Assembly: GCA_027491155.1 (NCBI GenBank)
Contig: JAIXWR010000021.1
Span: 62,001 to 126,000, forward strand
Direction of reading: 5' to 3'
Source: Verrucomicrobiaceae bacterium
GTDB lineage: Bacteria > Verrucomicrobiota > Verrucomicrobiia > Verrucomicrobiales > Akkermansiaceae
Length of the DNA stretch: 64,000 nt
How positions within the stretch are numbered: position 1 is the stretch's first letter; every line of letters starts with the position of its first letter. Below the pieces are notes generated by a model. The model had not been told where the DNA came from, did no database searches, and worked only from the letters and a program-made list of their open reading frames with translations. Shown here piece after piece: positions 3,101-59,271 of this stretch. The translations under genes and the position numbers were made by a program.

Positions 3101-5873
3101 CCTCGGCACCGCGGCCAACGACGGCATCCTCACCACCGGCAATGTCGACAACCTGGGCGCCGCCACGCTCAGCATCCTGAACGACAGCGCCGAGCCGCTG
3201 ACCGTCAACTCCGCCATCGCCAACAACGGCTCCGACCCTGTCGGCGTCGTCCTCGGCGGCAGCGGCAGCATCGCGCTGGCCGGCAACAACACCTTCACCG
3301 GCACCTTGGTCTCCAACGCCGCTTCGGTCCTCCTCGGCGGATCCAACAACTCGCTCGGCGGCATCACCGTCAACAGCGGCACGTTCAGCATGACCGGGGA
3401 CAATTCGTTCACCACCCTGCTCACCGTGAACAGCGGCAGCACCGCCATCCTCAGCGGAAACAACGTCGGCCGCCCCGGCAACCTCGCCACCCGCACGGTC
3501 GTCAACGCCGGAGGCATCCTGCAGCTGCAGGCCAACGCCGGAAACACCACGGCCGGCGTTTCCACCGCGCTCTCCACCGAGCAAAGCGGCACCGTCCAGC
3601 CCTTCAACCTCTTCAACGGCGGCCTGCTTCAGCTCCGCTCGGACGACTCGGTGACCTTCGCCGGCGGCAACAACGCCGGCGGCTTCAACGGCGCGACCCT
3701 GGGCATCGATGTCGACCGCATCGGCGCCAGCGCCACCGGCCAGACCCTGACCTTCGCCCCGGGCACCCTCCTGCCCTACGGCAACGCCGTGACCTTCAAC
3801 ATCACCGGCGCGAACGGCTACAAGCTCGCCCTCGGCACCTTCCGCAACGTCACCGGCGGCGCCAGCAACCTGACGCTCAACCCGACCACCGCCGACCTCC
3901 TGATCGCCGGCTATTCCAACCAGCAGAACAACGCCAACGCCAGCACCCTGACCCTCGCCGGAACCTCGGCCGCCAGCGAGGTGACCGGTGCCATCACCAA
4001 CCAGTCGCCGACCTCGACCGGCACCGGCGCGGTCAACGTGGTCAAGAACGGCAGCGGCACCTGGACGCTCTCCGGCGCCAGCACCTACACCGGTGCCACC
4101 ACCGTCAACGCCGGCCTCCTGAAAGCGAACAACGCCGCCGCTTTCGGCGTCACCAGCAGCCTCACCGCTGCCGGCACCGGCACGGTGGACCTGAACGGCT
4201 TCAACCTGACGGTCGGCAACATGGGAGCCGGTGCCGCCACCGCCACCATCACCGACAACAGCGCCGGCGCCGGAACCACCACCCTCGCCATCAGCGGCCA
4301 GACCAACACCGTCGCCAGCCTGATCACCAACGGGCCCGCCAAGGCCGTCCGGATCAGCCTCCGGAACGCCAACGGCGGCGCCACGCCCTTCACTCTGTCC
4401 AACGCCAACACCTTCTCCGGAGGCTTGCTGCTGGCCAACACCGCCACCGGCACCCGCCTCCGCATCACCGCCGCCCCGGTGACCGTCGGCTCGCCGGGCG
4501 CCATCGTCAGCAGCCCCTTCGGCACCGGACCGATCACCATCGGCGAGGCTCCCACCGACAAGGCCGGCATGCTGCTCGATACCGCCCCGAACTACACCAT
4601 CGCCAACGACATCGTCTTCAACACGACCCTCGGGACCGACCAGCCGGGCATCCGCCTCGATACCTTCGGCCACGTCTTCTCCGGAACCATCACCGCCAAC
4701 CTGTCCAACGCCCTCTTCGGCAACGTCGGCTCCGCCCGCCTGACCGGCCGGGTGACCGGTCCGAACGGCCTCCAGCTCAACGCCTCGGCGGTCAGCATCA
4801 CCCTCGCCAATGCCACGGCCAGCCCGAACGATTACGTCGGCGACACCACCATCGGCGCCGGGGCCACCCTTTCCATGGGCGCCCCGAACCAGATCCCCAA
4901 CGGCGCCGGCAAGGGCAGTGTCGTCCTCAACGGCACCCTCAACCTCGCCGGCCACGACCAGACGATCAACGGGATCAGCGGCTCCGGCACGATCTCCTCC
5001 TCCTCCGGCAGCCCGACGCTCTCCGTCGGCGGTAGCAACGCCAGCGCCACCTTCACCGGCAGCACCGGCGGCTCGGTCGGCCTCAACAAGATCGGCTCCG
5101 GCTTCATCACCATCACCGGCACCATCGGCCACCTCGGCGACACCACCGTGACCCAGGGCACGCTCGCCATCGCCGGGGCCTCGACCTTCGCCGATGGCGC
5201 GGACATCCGCCTCCTCACCGGCGGCACGCTCAACCTGCCCGCCGGCACCGATGTCGTCGACCAGCTCTTCATCAACGGCACCCCGCAAGCCGCCGGCAAG
5301 TGGGGCCGCCTCGGATCGATCGCCGCGCTCGGCGCCGACTTCGAGACCGCCCTGATCAACGGCGACGGCCTGCTCAGCGTGACCTCCTCCGGCGCCACGC
5401 CCTACGGCACCTGGATCAATGCCTTCTTCCCGGGCGAGACCAATCCCGCGATCATCGGCCAGACCGCCGACCCGGACAAGGACGGCTTCGACAACCTCAC
5501 CGAGTTCGGCTTCGACGGCAATCCCGGCAGCGGCAGCCTGAACCCGAAGGTGTTCGTCTTCACCGCCGACAGCACCTTCGACGGCGACACCGACAAGGAG
5601 CTGGTCCTCACCGCCGCCATCCGCACCGGTGCCGCGGCCTTCACCAATGCCGCGCCCTCGACCGCCGCCTCGGTGGCCGACGGCATCACCTACCGGATCG
5701 AAGGCAGCAGCACGCTGGCGAGCTTCCCGACCACGGTGAACGCGGTCCCGACGGCCATCACCACCGACCTGCCCGCCCTGAACCCCGGCTACTCCTACCG
5801 CAGCTTCAGCCTCGGCGGCTCGAACGGTCTGCCCTCCAAGGGCTTCCTCCGCGCCAGCGTGAGCGCCCCCTGA
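183..5873 (+). CDS. Giant secreted autotransporter-associated beta-strand repeat protein
   Basis: This 1,896-residue protein begins with a Sec signal peptide (basic start, hydrophobic stretch, A-Q-A cleavage near residue 32). The body is a Ser/Thr/Asn/Gly-rich repeat array in which segments like KTGAGTLVLTNTNTYTGLT recur with GG-L turns, the pattern of the autotransporter-associated beta-strand repeat (PATR) family, expected to form a long beta-solenoid on the surface or outside the cell. No beta-barrel translocator is visible at the C-terminus. Instead, from about residue 1,743, a W-I-N-A-F-F segment is followed by a D-x-D-x-D-G calcium-loop-like motif and an ending F-L-R-A-S-V-S-A-P; a similar end occurs on the CotH giant at 28709. 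It stands alone and a strong terminator follows. Role unknown; adhesion or polysaccharide contact is an inference. Confidence 0.9.
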   Translation: MKPNTPADSASFAVRFALLATALAFTGGHAQAQLTWNSAGATNNWSTASGNENWLPGGVVWTQNSNAVFDAGAESINVTTVNTFNNLSFDVSGFIITSSGAGSLALANDFASTIAVTNSGDTATVNETLANNSGIPSTLTKTGAGTLILFGTAANTFSGGLSVSEGTLVASHEGALGTGPVTVASGATLDVNKGNVTFTGLSNSLSGSGTVRVTALGTGTNTVNLNGNHSSFTGNLVVGVGAAAGAGKIQLNGADNASTAITVEPNATVFTSAGSHNASITLKGGDTGESIGQLRVDGAATVWAGPVILDGAMTGANDGIVGSNSGPATISGVISELNGPRDLTKAGAGTLVLTNTNTYTGLTRIFGGNLSVATIGNAGNPGPIGTNSTIALGNLATGGTLIYTGAGESTDRVIDLGGTYGNGGVSQSGTGLLNFTSAPTASGVGGKTLVLSGDTAGIGEISGTIGNIFNNGGTVSTTASAAFAAAATSITVASVTDVVIGSIVSGTGITSSQRVTSITGAGPFTIGLSAGANAAGTLGQTITFTQPNAINKQGTGTWVLSGVNSYTGITNVAGGVLRVTNNSSLGSDTGATRITGDVSGSGRVEWAGDFTFTEPFIVSARQGVTLNIPSLSHVSGTTTLTAQVQGQTGGSTYNIESQSGLLTLAGGFTLSGGATGTGRVLQLQGAGDGVVSGEISNGTGTPTVNKQGTGTWTLSGPNTYTGATTVNGGTLVLAGTASNASNRTVNTGTLVISGDYSGAGGTTTVNGGTLRLDYSTTDTSKLPESTLTLSGGTVELVGGTHPETVASTTLVNGRSTLITRPSGTARLDLRAVTPAGTGTVVLAESGIATTDTTNTNGILPWSRVLVGGIPVIGTNSTNGTDGPIVAYAAFSAVERLGPNSIPNDITKNVQIVNGGTIGNVGLTATPLNRINLLQMVADEGPSTVDPANSTDVLMVGDEAGGLIWQSPGADSLTLGTAANDGILTTGNVDNLGAATLSILNDSAEPLTVNSAIANNGSDPVGVVLGGSGSIALAGNNTFTGTLVSNAASVLLGGSNNSLGGITVNSGTFSMTGDNSFTTLLTVNSGSTAILSGNNVGRPGNLATRTVVNAGGILQLQANAGNTTAGVSTALSTEQSGTVQPFNLFNGGLLQLRSDDSVTFAGGNNAGGFNGATLGIDVDRIGASATGQTLTFAPGTLLPYGNAVTFNITGANGYKLALGTFRNVTGGASNLTLNPTTADLLIAGYSNQQNNANASTLTLAGTSAASEVTGAITNQSPTSTGTGAVNVVKNGSGTWTLSGASTYTGATTVNAGLLKANNAAAFGVTSSLTAAGTGTVDLNGFNLTVGNMGAGAATATITDNSAGAGTTTLAISGQTNTVASLITNGPAKAVRISLRNANGGATPFTLSNANTFSGGLLLANTATGTRLRITAAPVTVGSPGAIVSSPFGTGPITIGEAPTDKAGMLLDTAPNYTIANDIVFNTTLGTDQPGIRLDTFGHVFSGTITANLSNALFGNVGSARLTGRVTGPNGLQLNASAVSITLANATASPNDYVGDTTIGAGATLSMGAPNQIPNGAGKGSVVLNGTLNLAGHDQTINGISGSGTISSSSGSPTLSVGGSNASATFTGSTGGSVGLNKIGSGFITITGTIGHLGDTTVTQGTLAIAGASTFADGADIRLLTGGTLNLPAGTDVVDQLFINGTPQAAGKWGRLGSIAALGADFETALINGDGLLSVTSSGATPYGTWINAFFPGETNPAIIGQTADPDKDGFDNLTEFGFDGNPGSGSLNPKVFVFTADSTFDGDTDKELVLTAAIRTGAAAFTNAAPSTAASVADGITYRIEGSSTLASFPTTVNAVPTAITTDLPALNPGYSYRSFSLGGSNGLPSKGFLRASVSAP

Positions 5874-21268: not shown

Positions 21269-22462
21269 TCATTCGCCGGCTTTCTCCAGTGCCTGAAGGA
21301 TTTCGGCCGCCCTTTCTGGCTCGAGGAGCAGGAGCATTTTCAATTGAGCCGGATGAAGCCGGGTCGGGTCGTTGATTCGAAGGAATTTCTCACCCTCGAA
21401 CAGCTGGGCTTCCTCCAGCGGAAAGATCTGCCCGGCAGCCGCCAGCTCGCCGAATTCTCCGTCTGCTATATGAATCTCTCTCTTGTCGGTGAGACTGGTT
21501 CGGAACGGTGTGCCTCGAACCAACCAGGTGGGCGCATCGTAAAGATCCTGATGCGCGCTGGCTTCCTCGTGCAGGTGCATTTCCTCCTCAAATTCCGAAC
21601 GGCGCGTTACTGCCTCCTGCTCCGGGCTGAGGTCACAGACTACCCACGGCGCATATCGTTCATCCGCCAGCCAGCTTGTGGTCTCGAGAAACCTCAGGTA
21701 GGTCGTTCCTTCAAAGAATCCATGCGAGACTTGCTCGCCACCCGAAAGACGCCCAATTTTTTCGGTGATCTCCGGGGTTAGACCCGAGCCGTCTGAGGCC
21801 GTGCCTTCTACAAACAAGGCGAACGCTTTCACGCGGTTTTCAAACTGCTCGCGATCCACGGCTAACGCGGCATTCAACCGCTCTTTCAGCGCCTTCTTTT
21901 GAGCCGCATCCAGCCTCAGGCCATCGGCCAGTGCGTTCCCGTACCATTCTCTTTGGTTCCGGGCACATTCTAGGCTGGCCGTCCTCAATTGCACCGCCAG
22001 TTCGGTATTGATTTTGCCCTCGGTCACTCGGGACGGATCGTTAACGAGGCGCCCAGTGTTGGTTAGAACACTCCCCTGTCCTTCACCCAGCCCCGCCCTC
22101 TGAAAATCCTCCACGATCCACCGCACCTCCTGCGCGGTCATCCCCTTCTTGCAGCGGGCGAGGTAGTCTTCCACCACGTCCACCGGCTTTTCATCCTCCG
22201 CGCGCGCCGTCCGCTGCGACACCTTCCCCGGCAGCATCTCACCGGCCAGCGCGGCGGACTCCGGTTGTTCGTCGGTTCCCCCGCCACCGGCCCGCAGCGC
22301 CAACCAACAGGCGAGGACGCTCAGCAAGATCGCGGAGATCAACCACAGCGGATTCGCGCGCGGCCGCGGCACTTCCTCCGGCTCGCGGAATTGCTCGAGC
22401 AATTCCTCGAGATCCGCATCGGCGGCGGGTTCTTCTTCTTCCGGTTCGGGCGGCTCCGACAC
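21269..22462 (-). CDS. Membrane-anchored protein of unknown function
   Basis: 397 residues. The N-terminus is very acidic (M-S-E-P-P-E-P-E-E-E-E-P), followed by one transmembrane helix near residues 40-57 (L-W-L-I-S-A-I-L-L-S-V-L-A-C-W-L-A-L) and a long, mostly helical, charged domain. The topology resembles a cytoplasmic acidic tail with a periplasmic domain. I do not recognise the family. Codon use is a little more AT-rich than its neighbours in the region 21300-22100. Probably co-transcribed with the downstream glycosyltransferase, which could tie it to the envelope; that is inference. Confidence 0.6.
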   Translation of the reverse strand: MSEPPEPEEEEPAADADLEELLEQFREPEEVPRPRANPLWLISAILLSVLACWLALRAGGGGTDEQPESAALAGEMLPGKVSQRTARAEDEKPVDVVEDYLARCKKGMTAQEVRWIVEDFQRAGLGEGQGSVLTNTGRLVNDPSRVTEGKINTELAVQLRTASLECARNQREWYGNALADGLRLDAAQKKALKERLNAALAVDREQFENRVKAFALFVEGTASDGSGLTPEITEKIGRLSGGEQVSHGFFEGTTYLRFLETTSWLADERYAPWVVCDLSPEQEAVTRRSEFEEEMHLHEEASAHQDLYDAPTWLVRGTPFRTSLTDKREIHIADGEFGELAAAGQIFPLEEAQLFEGEKFLRINDPTRLHPAQLKMLLLLEPERAAEILQALEKAGE

Positions 22463-22512
22463 GCCTGCTTCCTAGGCGGCACGGGCCGCCGCGGCAAGTG
22501 CCGCGCTTCCTT

Positions 22513-22672
22513 TGTAGCGGCCGTCTGCCTGTCCTTCGTAGCCTCGGCGGAGAAGGATGACCGCTGCACTTTGTAAGGAAGCCCCCCTTGAAGCCGCCCC
22601 TTCCCGCGGGGTGAATCCGGCCTCCCCGGTTGCTACATGGACAACCAGCGGCGGTCGCAGACGGCCGCTACA
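22513..22672. repeat. 160-bp element with perfect 16-bp inverted ends
   Basis: TGTAGCGGCCGTCTGC at 22513-22528 is exactly complementary to GCAGACGGCCGCTACA at 22657-22672. Inside lies a CCTTCGTAGCC-type hairpin (22533-22557) like those at 5999-6025 and 55555-55582. It looks like a miniature palindromic element; no transposase is nearby. Confidence 0.7.
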
Positions 22673-22687
22673 GGGAGGAGCGGCACC

Positions 22688-22847
22688 AAAAGAAAAACCC
22701 GCTGGCACCGTTGGGGGGAACGAAGTCAGCGGGTTTTCCCGTGGGGGTCGGGGGGGATGTTTTCGGTCCGGGGGGAGACCTTGCAAACCCGGCCGTGGGG
22801 GGGATCGGCTTGGCTTACGAACGGAGAATGCCCGATTTTCTGTGTTT
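22688..22847 (-). ncRNA. Putative C-rich small RNA, copy 1, ending in an intrinsic terminator
   Basis: Read on the minus strand this unit begins near 22847 with AAACACAGAAAATCGG. A first hairpin pairs 22832-22836 with 22804-22808, with a seven-C run just after. A hairpin at 22780-22765 has stem GGUC/GACC and a C6 loop. A free seven-C run and a five-C run follow. It ends with a terminator: stem AACCCGCTG/CAGCGGGTT (22735-22727 with 22704-22696), an inner CGUU/AACG stem capped by C6, then UUUUUCUUUU. The near-identity with copy 2 over 160 bases, and structures set in the same order, argue for an RNA. Promoter not identified. Confidence 0.55.
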
Positions 22848-22890
22848 TACAAGTACGCCATCGCGTGGTGTCCCGCGAGCAAGGCCCGGG

Positions 22891-23049
22891 AAAAGAAAAA
22901 CCCGCTGGCACCGTTGGGGGGAACGAAGGCAGCGGGTTTTCCCGTGGGGGTCGGGGGGGATGTTTTCGGTCCGGGGGGAGACCTTGCAAACCCGGCCGTG
23001 GGGGGATCGGCTTGGCTTACGAACGGAGAATGCCCGATTTTCTGTGTTT
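22891..23049 (-). ncRNA. Putative C-rich small RNA, copy 2, in the 3' region of the CBM9-like gene
   Basis: This 159-bp unit differs from copy 1 by one substitution (G for T at 22929) and one missing base in a G run. It has the same order of elements on the minus strand: stem 23038-23034/23010-23006, C6-loop hairpin 22983-22968, C runs, and terminator 22938-22899 with a C6 inner loop and a U-rich end. It begins 29 bases after the stop of the gene at 23078, so it could be a processed 3'-UTR RNA. A 43-base spacer separates it from copy 1. Confidence 0.55.
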
Positions 23050-23077
23050 CCGCCATTACGTCATGACGGGAGCGCGA

Positions 23078-23671
23078 TCACGCATCCGCGAACTCGACCG
23101 GCCCGAACTTGGCCGGCTGGTGGAAGTCCGGTTCGCCGCCGCCGAGATCGACCGCGCTCAGAAAGCGCTGCTCCGGCGAGCCGAGGATGAAGTTCACGTT
23201 CAGCCGGCTCTTCGCCCCGAAATCCAGCCGCGCCTGGAGCAGATCGAGCGGGATCGCCATCGCCGCCACCCAGCCTCCGTCCGGCGCCAGCTCGGCAAAG
23301 GTCGCCACCTCGGGAAAGGCGATCTCCACCTGTTCCGCCCGCACCCGCGGCGCGGTGAACTCGCAGCTCCACCACGCGCCGTTCGGGGAAAGATTGAACT
23401 CGAAGTAACGCCCGCTTGTCGGATCGGTTAGAAAAAGTTCGGCGACATCGTGTTTCCAAAGCTCCGGCGTGAAGCGCCCGGGCCGGGCCGCAGGGTGAAG
23501 CCGCGCAGGGCGACCATGCGACGCGACGAACCACAGCATCCGGGGATCTACGGCAACGCAAAATGCCGCTTGCGGGTCGACCGCGTTTCCATACCAATCC
23601 CGCCCGAGACCGAACAGAGGCAGGTCCAATTCGCCCCAAGCCAAGGCTTTCGCACTGCGGATGACCGTCAT
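23078..23671 (-). CDS. CBM9/DOMON-like carbohydrate-binding protein
   Basis: 197 residues from the ATG at 23671; another in-frame ATG at 23737 would add 22 residues with no signal character. The sequence shows the CBM9-like pattern for sugar recognition: L-W-K-H-D-V-A-E-L-F-L-T-D, R-Y-F-E-F-N-L-S-P-N-G-A-W-W, and a late R-L-N-V-N-F-I-L-G-S-P-E-Q-R-F-L-S. These match the D-x-x-E-x-F and F-E-x-x-x-x-P motifs of the family. No signal peptide is evident. The putative C-rich RNAs lie directly downstream. It is divergent from the DUF1287 gene. Confidence 0.7.
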   Translation of the reverse strand: MTVIRSAKALAWGELDLPLFGLGRDWYGNAVDPQAAFCVAVDPRMLWFVASHGRPARLHPAARPGRFTPELWKHDVAELFLTDPTSGRYFEFNLSPNGAWWSCEFTAPRVRAEQVEIAFPEVATFAELAPDGGWVAAMAIPLDLLQARLDFGAKSRLNVNFILGSPEQRFLSAVDLGGGEPDFHQPAKFGPVEFADA

Positions 23672-23795
23672 GGCGAAAGGGGTAGAAAGCTGCCGACGCC
23701 AGGTCGAGGACAGGAATTTTCGAAAAACTTGAGGCACCCCGAGAATTTAGGTGGCCTCCCGATCGTGGATTTGCTTTACTTTTCTTAATAGAACC
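23672..23795. promoter_or_regulatory. Divergent promoter region
   Basis: The 124 bases between the divergent genes contain an AT-rich stretch (TTGCTTTACTTTTCTTAATA at 23771-23790) that ends only 5 bases before the ATG at 23796. This suggests a promoter for the plus-strand gene with a very short or absent leader; no Shine-Dalgarno is present. Confidence 0.35.
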
Positions 23796-48268: not shown

Positions 48269-50218
48269 ATGAAACCAAGACACTTCAGAATCATCGGCAC
48301 CCTTTCGGCCTTCACGATGGCCGCGGCGCTGAACTTTTCGCCGGGGGCCCTGGCCCTTTCTCCTGCCGCCGAGACCGTGCAGGACCTTGAAATCCTCACC
48401 CGCGGGCCGGTTCACGAGGCCTTCGCGGAGTCCGTCAGCTTCGAACCCGTGGCCGGGCTGATCGTGCGGGTCGCCCCGCCGGAACCGATCGAGGAACTTC
48501 CGCCCGAGCAGCAGCCCGAGGGCGACAACGTCACCTGGATCCCGGGTTACTGGGCTTGGGACGACGACCGCGGCGATTTCCTCTGGATCAGCGGCATCTG
48601 GCGCAACCTGCCGCCGGAACGCCAGTGGGTGCCCGGTTATTGGGACGACCTCGGCAACGGCGAATACCAGTGGACCTCCGGCTACTGGGCGGATGCGGAG
48701 ACCACGGAAACCGCCTACATTCCCGCGCCGCCACCCCGCAGCGTCGACGTCGGGCCGAACATCGCCGCGCCGTCCGCCGACCACACCTGGATCCCCGGGA
48801 ACTGGATCTGGACGGAGACCCGCTACGTCTGGCGTCCCGGCTACTGGAACGTGCTGCGCCCGAACTGGACCTGGGTGCCGTCCCGCTACTGCTGGACGCG
48901 CCGCGGCTACGTGTATGTCGACGGCTACTGGGACTACGCCGTCGCCCGCCGCGGGGTGATCTTCGCGCCGGTATATTTCAGCCGCCGGGTCTATGTGGAA
49001 CCCGCCTACTACTATACACCTAGTATCGTGGTCAGCCTGGATGTCTTTTCCGCCCACCTCTTCATCCGCCCGCGCTGCGGCCACTACTACTTCGGCGACT
49101 ACTACGCGCCCCGCTACCGCGATTCCGGCTTCTACGCCTCTTTCCACTGGCATTCCGGCGGCCGCGGCTACGACCCGATCTTCGCCTACAACCGCTGGGA
49201 CCACCGCCACGACCATCATTGGGTGCGGCAATGCGAGGAGAACTACGTTTTCTTCCGCGACAACGACCGCTACCGCCCGCCGCACACCTGGTCGGCGATG
49301 GAAAGGCTGCGCACGGAGAAGTTCGACGACGACCGCGGACGCAGCCGCCTGTTCGCGAACTCCTTCGCCGGTCTCGCGAAGAACCCGGAGCGCGGGCTGA
49401 AATTCCGCAAGGTGGACCAGGCGAGCCGCACCGAGTTCGTCGCCAAGGGCAAGGAGATGCGGAAGTTCAGCCTGGAGCGCCGCAAGGTCGAGGCAAAGCC
49501 CGTGTCGGCGGAGGACGTCTCGAAGAAGGTCGTCACCCGCGAGAAGATCAACCGTTCGCCGGTTTTCGGCCGCAATGCCGGGCAGCTTTCCAAGGAGCAG
49601 GCGCCGCCGGAGCGCCCCGAGCCTCGGGGAGGCCAGTTCAAGGAGAAGCGCGAGGCGAAGAAGGCGGAAAAAGCCGGCACGGTCGAGGAGTCGCCGGGAG
49701 CGGATCGCGAGCAGCAGCCCGGCGGCAACACCCGGGAGATGCCCGGGCGCAAGGTCAAGCCGGTGCCTGAAACCCGCGAAAAGCCCGAGCCCGAGCCGAA
49801 GGTCACCCCCGAGCGCAAGGTCAAGCCGGAGGCCCCGACCCGCGAGGTCCCGCAGCGCGAGCCGAAGGTCACGCCCGAACGCAAGGTCAAGCCGGAGGCC
49901 CCGACCCGCGAGGTCCCGCAGCGCAAGCCGATGGTCACGCCCGAGCGCAAGGTCAAGCCGGAGGCTCCCACCCGGGAGGTCCCCCAGCGCAAGCCGATGG
50001 TCGTTCCCGAGCGCAAGGTCAAGCCCGAGCCCCCGACCCGCGAAGTCCCGCAGCGCAAGCCGATGGTGACACCCGAGCGGAAGGTCAAGCCAGAGCCCCA
50101 AGTCCGGGAAACTCCCAAGCGCGAAATCCAGCGCCAGCCGCAACCCCAGCGCCAGATCCAGCCCTTCAAGCGGGACAAGGAGCCCGGGAAGGGAAACAAG
50201 GGCCTCCCTGACGCCTGA
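48269..50218 (+). CDS. Exported W-x-P-G-Y-W repeat protein with 22-residue tail repeats
   Basis: 649 residues from the ATG at 48269, set by a strong AGGAGG. A signal peptide (F-T-M-A-A-A-L-N-F-S-P-G-A-L-A) precedes an aromatic domain with repeated W-x-P-G-Y-W units (V-T-W-I-P-G-Y-W, R-Q-W-V-P-G-Y-W, T-W-I-P-G-N-W, Y-V-W-R-P-G-Y-W) of the YXWXPGYW family, then a Tyr/His-rich stretch with many Y-Y and R-H-D-H-H. The C-terminal third is basic and Pro/Glu-rich, with five perfect-length 22-residue repeats (residues about 509-618). Likely a periplasmic or wall-associated structural protein; function unknown. Confidence 0.8.
   Translation: MKPRHFRIIGTLSAFTMAAALNFSPGALALSPAAETVQDLEILTRGPVHEAFAESVSFEPVAGLIVRVAPPEPIEELPPEQQPEGDNVTWIPGYWAWDDDRGDFLWISGIWRNLPPERQWVPGYWDDLGNGEYQWTSGYWADAETTETAYIPAPPPRSVDVGPNIAAPSADHTWIPGNWIWTETRYVWRPGYWNVLRPNWTWVPSRYCWTRRGYVYVDGYWDYAVARRGVIFAPVYFSRRVYVEPAYYYTPSIVVSLDVFSAHLFIRPRCGHYYFGDYYAPRYRDSGFYASFHWHSGGRGYDPIFAYNRWDHRHDHHWVRQCEENYVFFRDNDRYRPPHTWSAMERLRTEKFDDDRGRSRLFANSFAGLAKNPERGLKFRKVDQASRTEFVAKGKEMRKFSLERRKVEAKPVSAEDVSKKVVTREKINRSPVFGRNAGQLSKEQAPPERPEPRGGQFKEKREAKKAEKAGTVEESPGADREQQPGGNTREMPGRKVKPVPETREKPEPEPKVTPERKVKPEAPTREVPQREPKVTPERKVKPEAPTREVPQRKPMVTPERKVKPEAPTREVPQRKPMVVPERKVKPEPPTREVPQRKPMVTPERKVKPEPQVRETPKREIQRQPQPQRQIQPFKRDKEPGKGNKGLPDA
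49793..50122 (+). repeat. Five 66-bp tandem repeats inside the gene
   Basis: Units start at 49793, 49859, 49925, 49991 and 50057 and encode variants of K-P-M-V-T-P-E-R-K-V-K-P-E-A-P-T-R-E-V-P. The unit length is a multiple of 3, so copy-number change would keep the frame. Confidence 0.9.

Positions 50219-53505: not shown

Positions 53506-59271
<5,766 letters not shown>

Follow-up and report, generated by a model that had tools for sequence, protein, structure and literature searches.

Tandem C-rich RNA units in a genome of the Verrucomicrobiales: members of a multicopy family of predicted small RNAs

Among the small RNAs of bacteria, the CcsR RNAs of Rhodobacter are C-rich and RsaE of staphylococci carries C-rich unpaired motifs. 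In sX13 of Xanthomonas, stable stem-loops have C-rich loops, and the RNA acts on G-rich sites independently of Hfq, the enrichment of these sites near translation starts being reported for repressed genes and not for all genes (PMC3771888). In alpha-r14/NfeR1, hairpins with divergent stems each present an unpaired C-rich motif, CCUCCUCCC, as an anti-Shine–Dalgarno element (PMC10746234), and in RepG of Helicobacter pylori a C/U-rich terminator loop pairs with a G repeat (PMC8295292). GsrN of Caulobacter uses a C-rich loop on G-rich sites (PMC5869019), and so does PmaR of Agrobacterium, for the most part outside the ribosome binding site (PMC6234868); taken over sX13, PmaR and GsrN, C-loop action leads to either repression or activation (PMC3771888, PMC6234868, PMC5869019). 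In Rhodobacter, RNase E releases CcsR1-4 from a common transcript with ccaF1 (DUF1127), which is driven by an RpoHI/RpoHII promoter (PMC10253847).

The locus described here lies on the minus strand of the window, the whole stretch of 64,000 nucleotides that was analyzed, and comprises two tandem units, A and B. It shares with sX13 the hairpins exposing C runs, and its genus has no Hfq match, sX13 being a small RNA that acts without Hfq; it differs from sX13 (4C) in its C5–C7 runs, which average 4.3 and reach 8 per RNA, in its several gene copies and in having no Rfam match at the cut-off. As in alpha-r14/NfeR1, one C-rich motif is repeated in unpaired regions; here, however, the motif is UCCCCCC, the phylum is a different one, and Shine–Dalgarno use is seemingly weak in the window's genus. 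By reading, the CCUCCUCCC motif of alpha-r14 and the cuckoo RNAs is absent from units A and B, whose loops are CCCCCC or CCCCCCC. The terminator loop is C-rich as in RepG, but where RepG has one C/U-rich loop, the window's family has at least three loops and linkers with C runs and several gene copies. GsrN and PmaR have different folds and a single C-rich loop region as opposed to many. Finally, several small RNAs stand in a row as in CcsR1-4, whereas in the window's family each unit has a control block and a terminator for itself; a DUF1127 gene as in the CcsR operon was not found upstream, where a 219-aa ORF has no Pfam match.

Among the open-access papers covered by our literature searches, no description of such a small-RNA family in Verrucomicrobia was recognized. 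A covarying, multicopy family with a shared control site offers a handle on how small RNAs are used in bacteria that lack Hfq and are apparently poor in Shine–Dalgarno sequences, and it bears on whether the C-loop RNAs of unrelated phyla arose for one purpose or work differently here.

Sequence and predicted fold of the two units

Unit A occupies positions 22688–22849 and unit B positions 22891–23049 (162 and 159 bases on the plus strand), their starts being 203 bases apart. The initial annotation had described near-identical tandem units with only two differing positions, and the alignment agrees: there are 2 differences in 160 columns, namely one substitution and one single-C indel. The repeat of about 160 bp that it proposed is real, but about 30 bases of each copy are probably promoter, leaving an RNA of about 130 nt; likewise, the units do follow closely behind the upstream gene, although we count 28 bases from its stop codon to unit B and not 29.

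The predicted RNAs are RNA A (22688–22818, minus strand, about 131 nt) and RNA B (22891–23020, minus strand, about 130 nt), each with its putative +1 at the G of GUAAGCC. Folding from this start reproduces the ordered set of C-loop hairpins that had been proposed for the minus strand: a first hairpin, H1, is followed by a GGUCU/GGACC hairpin, H2, with a C6 loop, then by free C runs of 5–7 and by the terminator. In unit B, H1 (22986–23020, minus) reads GUAAGCC..GCCG-AUCCCCCCA-CGGC..GGUUUGC, H2 (22968–22983, minus) reads GGUCU-CCCCCC-GGACC, and the terminator hairpin spans 22891–22940 (minus); the counterparts in unit A are H1 at 22783–22818, H2 with its C6 loop at 22765–22780 and the terminator hairpin at 22688–22737, all minus. 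The H1 loops also contain C6 or C7, the C7 being that of unit A. All six assignments are supported by the fold and by covariation (see below). As had been claimed, each unit possesses one terminator, with an inner CGUU/AACG stem closing a C6 loop and a U-rich tail; the 3' end is UUUUUCUUUU. The minimum free energies of the two predicted RNAs are −49.4 and −50.4 kcal/mol (z −3.9 and −3.4), and for neither of them was any of 200 dinucleotide shuffles as stable.

Generic scans of 22500–23150 returned no sigma-70 promoter and only two terminator sites, both on the plus strand and none on the minus strand; the unit terminators were missed because the tool restricts loops and tails. On the plus strand, each unit has five G runs of 5–7, which could fold as a G-quadruplex, be it in the DNA itself or in an antisense transcript. 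It is, however, a minus-strand RNA that accounts for the conserved stems, the U-tailed terminator and the control block, and we regard a quadruplex as the function of the locus as very improbable.

Several further repeats were observed in the window. Just downstream of unit A lies a perfect 16-base inverted repeat, TGTAGCGGCCGTCTGC / GCAGACGGCCGCTACA (22513–22528 and 22657–22672). Farther away are a 66-base tandem array at 49741–50164, also readable as 132-base units, with 86% matches, and seven-base tandem repeats of GATTGTT and GTTGATG at 54622–54654 and 56267–56296.

Distribution and covariation of the family

At the gathering cut-off, Rfam 15 gave no match anywhere in the window, and at a permissive E ≤ 5 the region 22480–23100 gave six matches, every one below the cut-off. 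This accords with the initial statement that no verrucomicrobial family like the two units was known to be described; RsaE was compared with the window's family via these Rfam scans alone, and again there was no match at the cut-off. The small-RNA family without an Rfam match is very probably real: its functional kind is known, while its sequence and layout are its own.

The window's own genome (G000) contains four units, the second tandem pair being located on contig C40. A DNA search of 38 genomes, this one included, gave matches in 10, all of them members of the genus, and in 0 of 20 genomes outside the genus. From 33 copies we assembled a 28-row MAFFT alignment, excluding one unit cut by a contig end (G007:C13), a degenerate one (G012:C174) and three units of G011, and built from it a covariance model, R1; a second model, R2, was built from 56 units, that is, from every match at E ≤ 1e-6 in the collected DNA, aligned to the model. 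The family model recovers unit A at 22686–22842 and unit B at 22889–23044. R1 matched 13 of 18 genomes of the genus and R2 15 of 18, with no R2 match in the other three, bearing in mind that sequences used for building match their own model by construction. Across the order, R1 matched 15 of 189 genomes, 11 of them in the same family and four in another one (G032, G086, G096, G139; E 5e-5 to 1e-3); G032, G086 and G139 were inspected by eye, were unconvincing and were set aside. Within the family, R2 matched 29 of 145 genomes, which represent 5 of 16 genera, with up to nine matches per genome; in the phylum it matched 11 of 387 genomes, ten of which belong to the family and one, outside it, is marginal (E 4.9e-4); searches over 40 genomes used stricter filters, by which weak matches are lost. 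In addition, a scan with a terminator pattern (60 stretches) revealed family members in Haloferula sp. BvORR071, in Luteolibacter marinus NBU1238 (now Neoluteolibacter) and in two MAGs, PH2015_07D_62_35 and MiE-16apr19-166, the latter labelled Akkermansia muciniphila; 12 further stretches with the pattern, read by eye, look like terminators or fortuitous hits that lack the remainder of the unit. The model is ready for annotating genomes of the family.

Tandem arrays comprise 2 to 6 units. The longest, in G011:C3 (L159 5035–6571), holds six units in about 1.5 kb that are unequal in length and in the number of C runs.

Of the 31 named base pairs, 12 show changes on both sides in the 28-unit alignment, where 88.4% of the cells can pair compared to 30–44% in slid controls. 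When 500 shuffles were evaluated by five measures, none reached the observed value in four of them and 6 did so in the fifth. Among all 56 units aligned to the model, double changes occur in 30 of the 31 pairs, but this alignment is biased towards the structure. RNAalifold, if unaided, recovers the terminator stem only (12 pairs, 6 with double changes), so that H1 and H2 rest on naming from single folds. A lack of conservation or covariation outside the locus had been named initially as a refutation of the proposed RNAs; in fact, both were found. Homologues of the units occur in further genomes and carry compensatory changes, so that the similarity exceeds chance, and the sequence comparison confirms that the two units are members of a structured, lineage-specific, multicopy RNA family.

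The loops themselves are C-rich in nearly all units of the family: with closing columns included, 53 of 56 H1 loops, 43 of 44 H2 loops and 54 of 56 terminator loops have a run of at least four C. Runs of at least five C number 4.3 per unit on average (range 1–8), as opposed to 0.04 for G runs of this length, and at least 204 C runs have a preceding U; the number of runs varies, and there is little conservation between them. Conserved hairpins exposing C runs and a terminator of its own, by which C-rich-loop small RNAs may be recognized, are thus both found. As to the transcribed strand, cells with G-U and A-C combinations number 132 and 85, or 80 and 85 if two columns are left out; since these counts are not decisive, the strand assignment rests on the U tail and on the side at which the control block is located.

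Being multicopy and tandem, and detected by R1 in 13 and by R2 in 15 of the 18 genomes of the genus, the units might also be a dispersed repeat without function, akin to REP elements. Yet such a repeat would hardly be expected to share neighborhoods across species, to preserve its stems by compensatory changes or to keep a control block at near-constant spacing, and we consider this explanation highly improbable.

Control block, predicted start sites and gene neighborhoods

Units A and B have a short upstream control block in common, embedded in otherwise different sequence. The block contains a palindrome-like element, ACGYSATNRCGTAAT, which appears as CCGTCATGACGTAAT before unit B (23055–23069, minus; pattern match G000:C23:85055-85068, corresponding to window 23055–23068) and as ACGCGATGGCGTACT before unit A (22852–22866, minus; pattern match G000:C23:84852-84865, corresponding to window 22852–22865). 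The strict pattern of the element, ACGYSATNRCGTRATRG, was found 39 times, in 13 of the 18 genomes of the genus, and its reversal not at all. Ten of these 39 matches precede units from a list of 52 and 29 do not, at least one of the latter (G007:C1) being a unit cut by a contig end. In a looser form, the element is found before 52 of the 56 units, and in 49 of these 52 it lies 41–44 bases ahead of H1.

From the 29 sites not assigned to listed units we removed one overlooked family unit and two sites that were G011 units read on the reverse strand, and aligned the remaining 26 on the palindrome alone. Of these, 21 have an A at +38 of the palindrome, 21 have a T at +42 and 19 have both; once similar sites had been collapsed, each base was still present in 16 of 21, and these were the two strongest positions. 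The −10 element of bacterial promoters has a conserved −11A and −7T, and we take A +38 and T +42 to occupy the places expected for these two bases. The corresponding −10-like hexamer would be CATTCT at 23027–23032 (minus) in unit B and, with the same sequence and the palindrome one base closer, at 22825–22830 (minus) in unit A. This signature puts +1 near the G of GUAAGC, at window position 23020 and at about 22818. Hence each unit is probably a gene of its own, with a predicted RNA of about 130 nt, and it appears very probable from the sequence evidence that the family as a whole consists of independently transcribed small RNAs.

The gene upstream of unit B (23078–23737, minus) encodes 219 aa if its uncertain start is correct; it has no Pfam match, an assignment as CBM9-like being without Pfam support and therefore discarded, and its neighborhood is common to seven other genomes. 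Downstream of unit A, an ORF of 397 aa (21269–22462, minus), likewise without a Pfam match and not called by the gene caller in the window, has counterparts with similar first residues downstream of units in other genomes. By our own reading, the called neighbors of the units fall into about six shared sites. The window's site, next to a DUF1287 gene (identified by Pfam in the window), is present in eight genomes (G000, G003, G006, G007, G008, G011, G012, G015). At another one, found in three genomes (L155, L150, L144), the units lie 10–227 bases from the 3' end of a convergent gene that, judged by its first residues, is presumably glmS-like.

These arrangements bear on two other origins of the RNAs. 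From their position shortly after a stop codon, the initial annotation had taken the units to look like RNAs derived from a 3'-UTR; they might also be mere terminators that are set free from the mRNA of the upstream gene. In favor of such an origin, unit B starts 28 bases past a stop codon, and many units have, as their closest called neighbor upstream, a gene of the same direction. This origin is at odds with the palindrome-bearing control block, which precedes units A and B and is found ahead of 52 of the 56 family units, with the position of unit A, which comes after the terminator of unit B, and with six sites (L162, L129_2287, L130, L133, L145, L144) where the closest called gene upstream runs in the other direction, and we deem it very unlikely. 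Alternatively, the terminal terminator and the same-direction downstream gene of some units could point to a cis-acting, riboswitch-like leader or to an attenuator of the next gene. However, the downstream genes vary between sites and often run in the opposite direction, and the units come in tandem arrays of 2 to 6 copies; a leader function thus has a very low probability in our view.

Possible targets and modes of action

For independently transcribed small RNAs of this kind, the following mechanism may be envisaged: A regulator would bind the palindrome and help RNA polymerase to start at the GUAAGC that opens H1, and the RNA of about 130 nt would end at its own terminator and act in trans. 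Its exposed UCCCCCC(G/A) loops would recognize, by base pairing, the G tracts of a restricted number of mRNAs and thereby alter their translation or stability without Hfq, while several loops and several gene copies would add dose. Because sX13, PmaR and GsrN are precedents for C loops acting on G-rich sites, and by analogy with RepG as well, pairing with G tracts is the likeliest mechanism; if the family does consist of independently transcribed small RNAs, we give it an even chance. Tandem, independent small-RNA genes whose C loops pair with G tracts therefore form the best explanation overall, which we hold tentatively and at slightly less than even odds.

The initial annotation had directed the C loops at G-rich ribosome binding sites and had suggested a scan of 5' regions for G-rich stretches. 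We derived start-region statistics with a rough gene caller of our own from parts of three genomes of the genus (0.79, 0.40 and 0.40 Mb), and they lend that claim no support. Runs of at least five G at −20..0 were not enriched, occurring at 2 of 416 called starts in G000, 1 of 165 in G009 and 0 of 179 in G002, and neither were GGAGG/AGGAG at these positions in the three partial genomes; G002, with its single weak unit, is no clean negative control. Targeting of ribosome binding sites as a rule was consequently dropped, and Shine–Dalgarno motifs look little used in the genus as far as these called starts indicate. A weak excess of such G runs at −50..−20 in G000 (14 of 416) concerns one bin of six and has no clear match in G009 (4 of 165) or G002 (4 of 179). 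Of the 132 runs of at least six G in 0.79 Mb, 22 lie within called CDS in sense and 23 in antisense orientation, which shows no strand preference, and 5 of the 132 have a called start at most 80 bases downstream. The contrast with sX13 has to be read with care, since our measure covers all called starts in parts of three genomes and that of the sX13 report repressed genes.

Matches to Hfq were found in 0 of 18 genomes of the genus (control: 5 of 14), and matches to RRM in 18 of 18, with 3–6 in each (control: 2 of 14). The count for Hfq agrees with the Hfq-independent pairing described above, and both counts also speak for the main rival of G-tract pairing, according to which the RNAs are decoys: UCCCCCC in their loops and linkers would bind an RNA-binding factor, for instance an RRM protein, and titrate it from mRNAs that carry the same element near their start, much as CsrB-type RNAs titrate CsrA. 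The presence of one short motif in variable number (1–8 runs of at least five C per unit), with little conserved in between, would suit such RNAs. Moreover, the element recurs at the starts of two palindrome-linked genes, as AUCCCCCCAUGA at the start codon of a MarR-type regulator gene in 4 of 4 orthologues, i.e. with AUCCCCCC directly before AUG, and in a 61-aa ORF that reads CCCUCCCCCCAUG; by comparison, 1 of 356 genes of G000 has at least six C no farther than 25 bases from its called ATG start. On the other hand, the binding partner is hypothetical, the link to the two genes was noticed post hoc, and the element is no general feature of leaders: raw counts had hinted at an enrichment of C runs, but those of at least five C upstream of starts in G000 are rarer than composition predicts (10 observed versus 45 in shuffles), and the idea of a general C-rich leader was abandoned. 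We therefore rate the decoys as possible but rather unlikely.

The MarR-type gene (Pfam) lies at G000:C23:296303-296761 (L210 7304–7762, minus), and a palindrome site also precedes a protein kinase gene (Pfam). A search for the MarR protein gave 21 matches, distributed over 17 of the 18 genomes of the genus; among 16 upstream regions inspected, the palindrome was present in four (G000, G006, G010, G015) and absent in 12. The four palindrome-linked orthologues are 84–100% identical to the query and have GUCAGCAAGC at the predicted +1. The pattern ATCCCCCCATGA has 23 matches in 14 of 18 genomes and none if reversed, but since the reversed control ignores how common ATG is at starts, we do not count these matches as enrichment; the largest set of related ORFs among them is the MarR group of four. 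LexA was considered as the regulator but not adopted.

Taking these genes together with the RNAs, UCCCCCC may be the regulatory word of one regulon: The palindrome, perhaps bound by the MarR-type protein in front of whose own gene it occurs, would switch on a battery of C-rich small RNAs that act as multi-site decoys for an RNA-binding factor, perhaps an RRM protein, which otherwise sits on AUCCCCCC-AUG start regions in bacteria without Hfq and with seemingly little Shine–Dalgarno use. This wider reading, which counts at least one further C-rich RNA type besides the family (e.g. at G000:C28:225474), is doubtful, and we assign it a low probability.

Other observations at palindrome sites are the following. 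The further RNA type just mentioned runs from G000:C28:225474 onwards (L213 about 4475–4620) as a second C-rich, RNA-like unit behind a palindrome, with a CCCCCC terminator loop, and similar stretches exist in G009 (L178), G004 (L191) and G012 (C174). C-rich, RNA-like stretches with GUAAG or GUCAG in the same position follow the palindrome at L168, L170, L173, L191 and L198. In G000:C38 (L206 3968–4108), a palindrome-linked ORF of 47 aa without a Pfam match starts near the predicted +1 and is possibly leaderless, and similar ORFs are present in G003, G007, G008 and G010.
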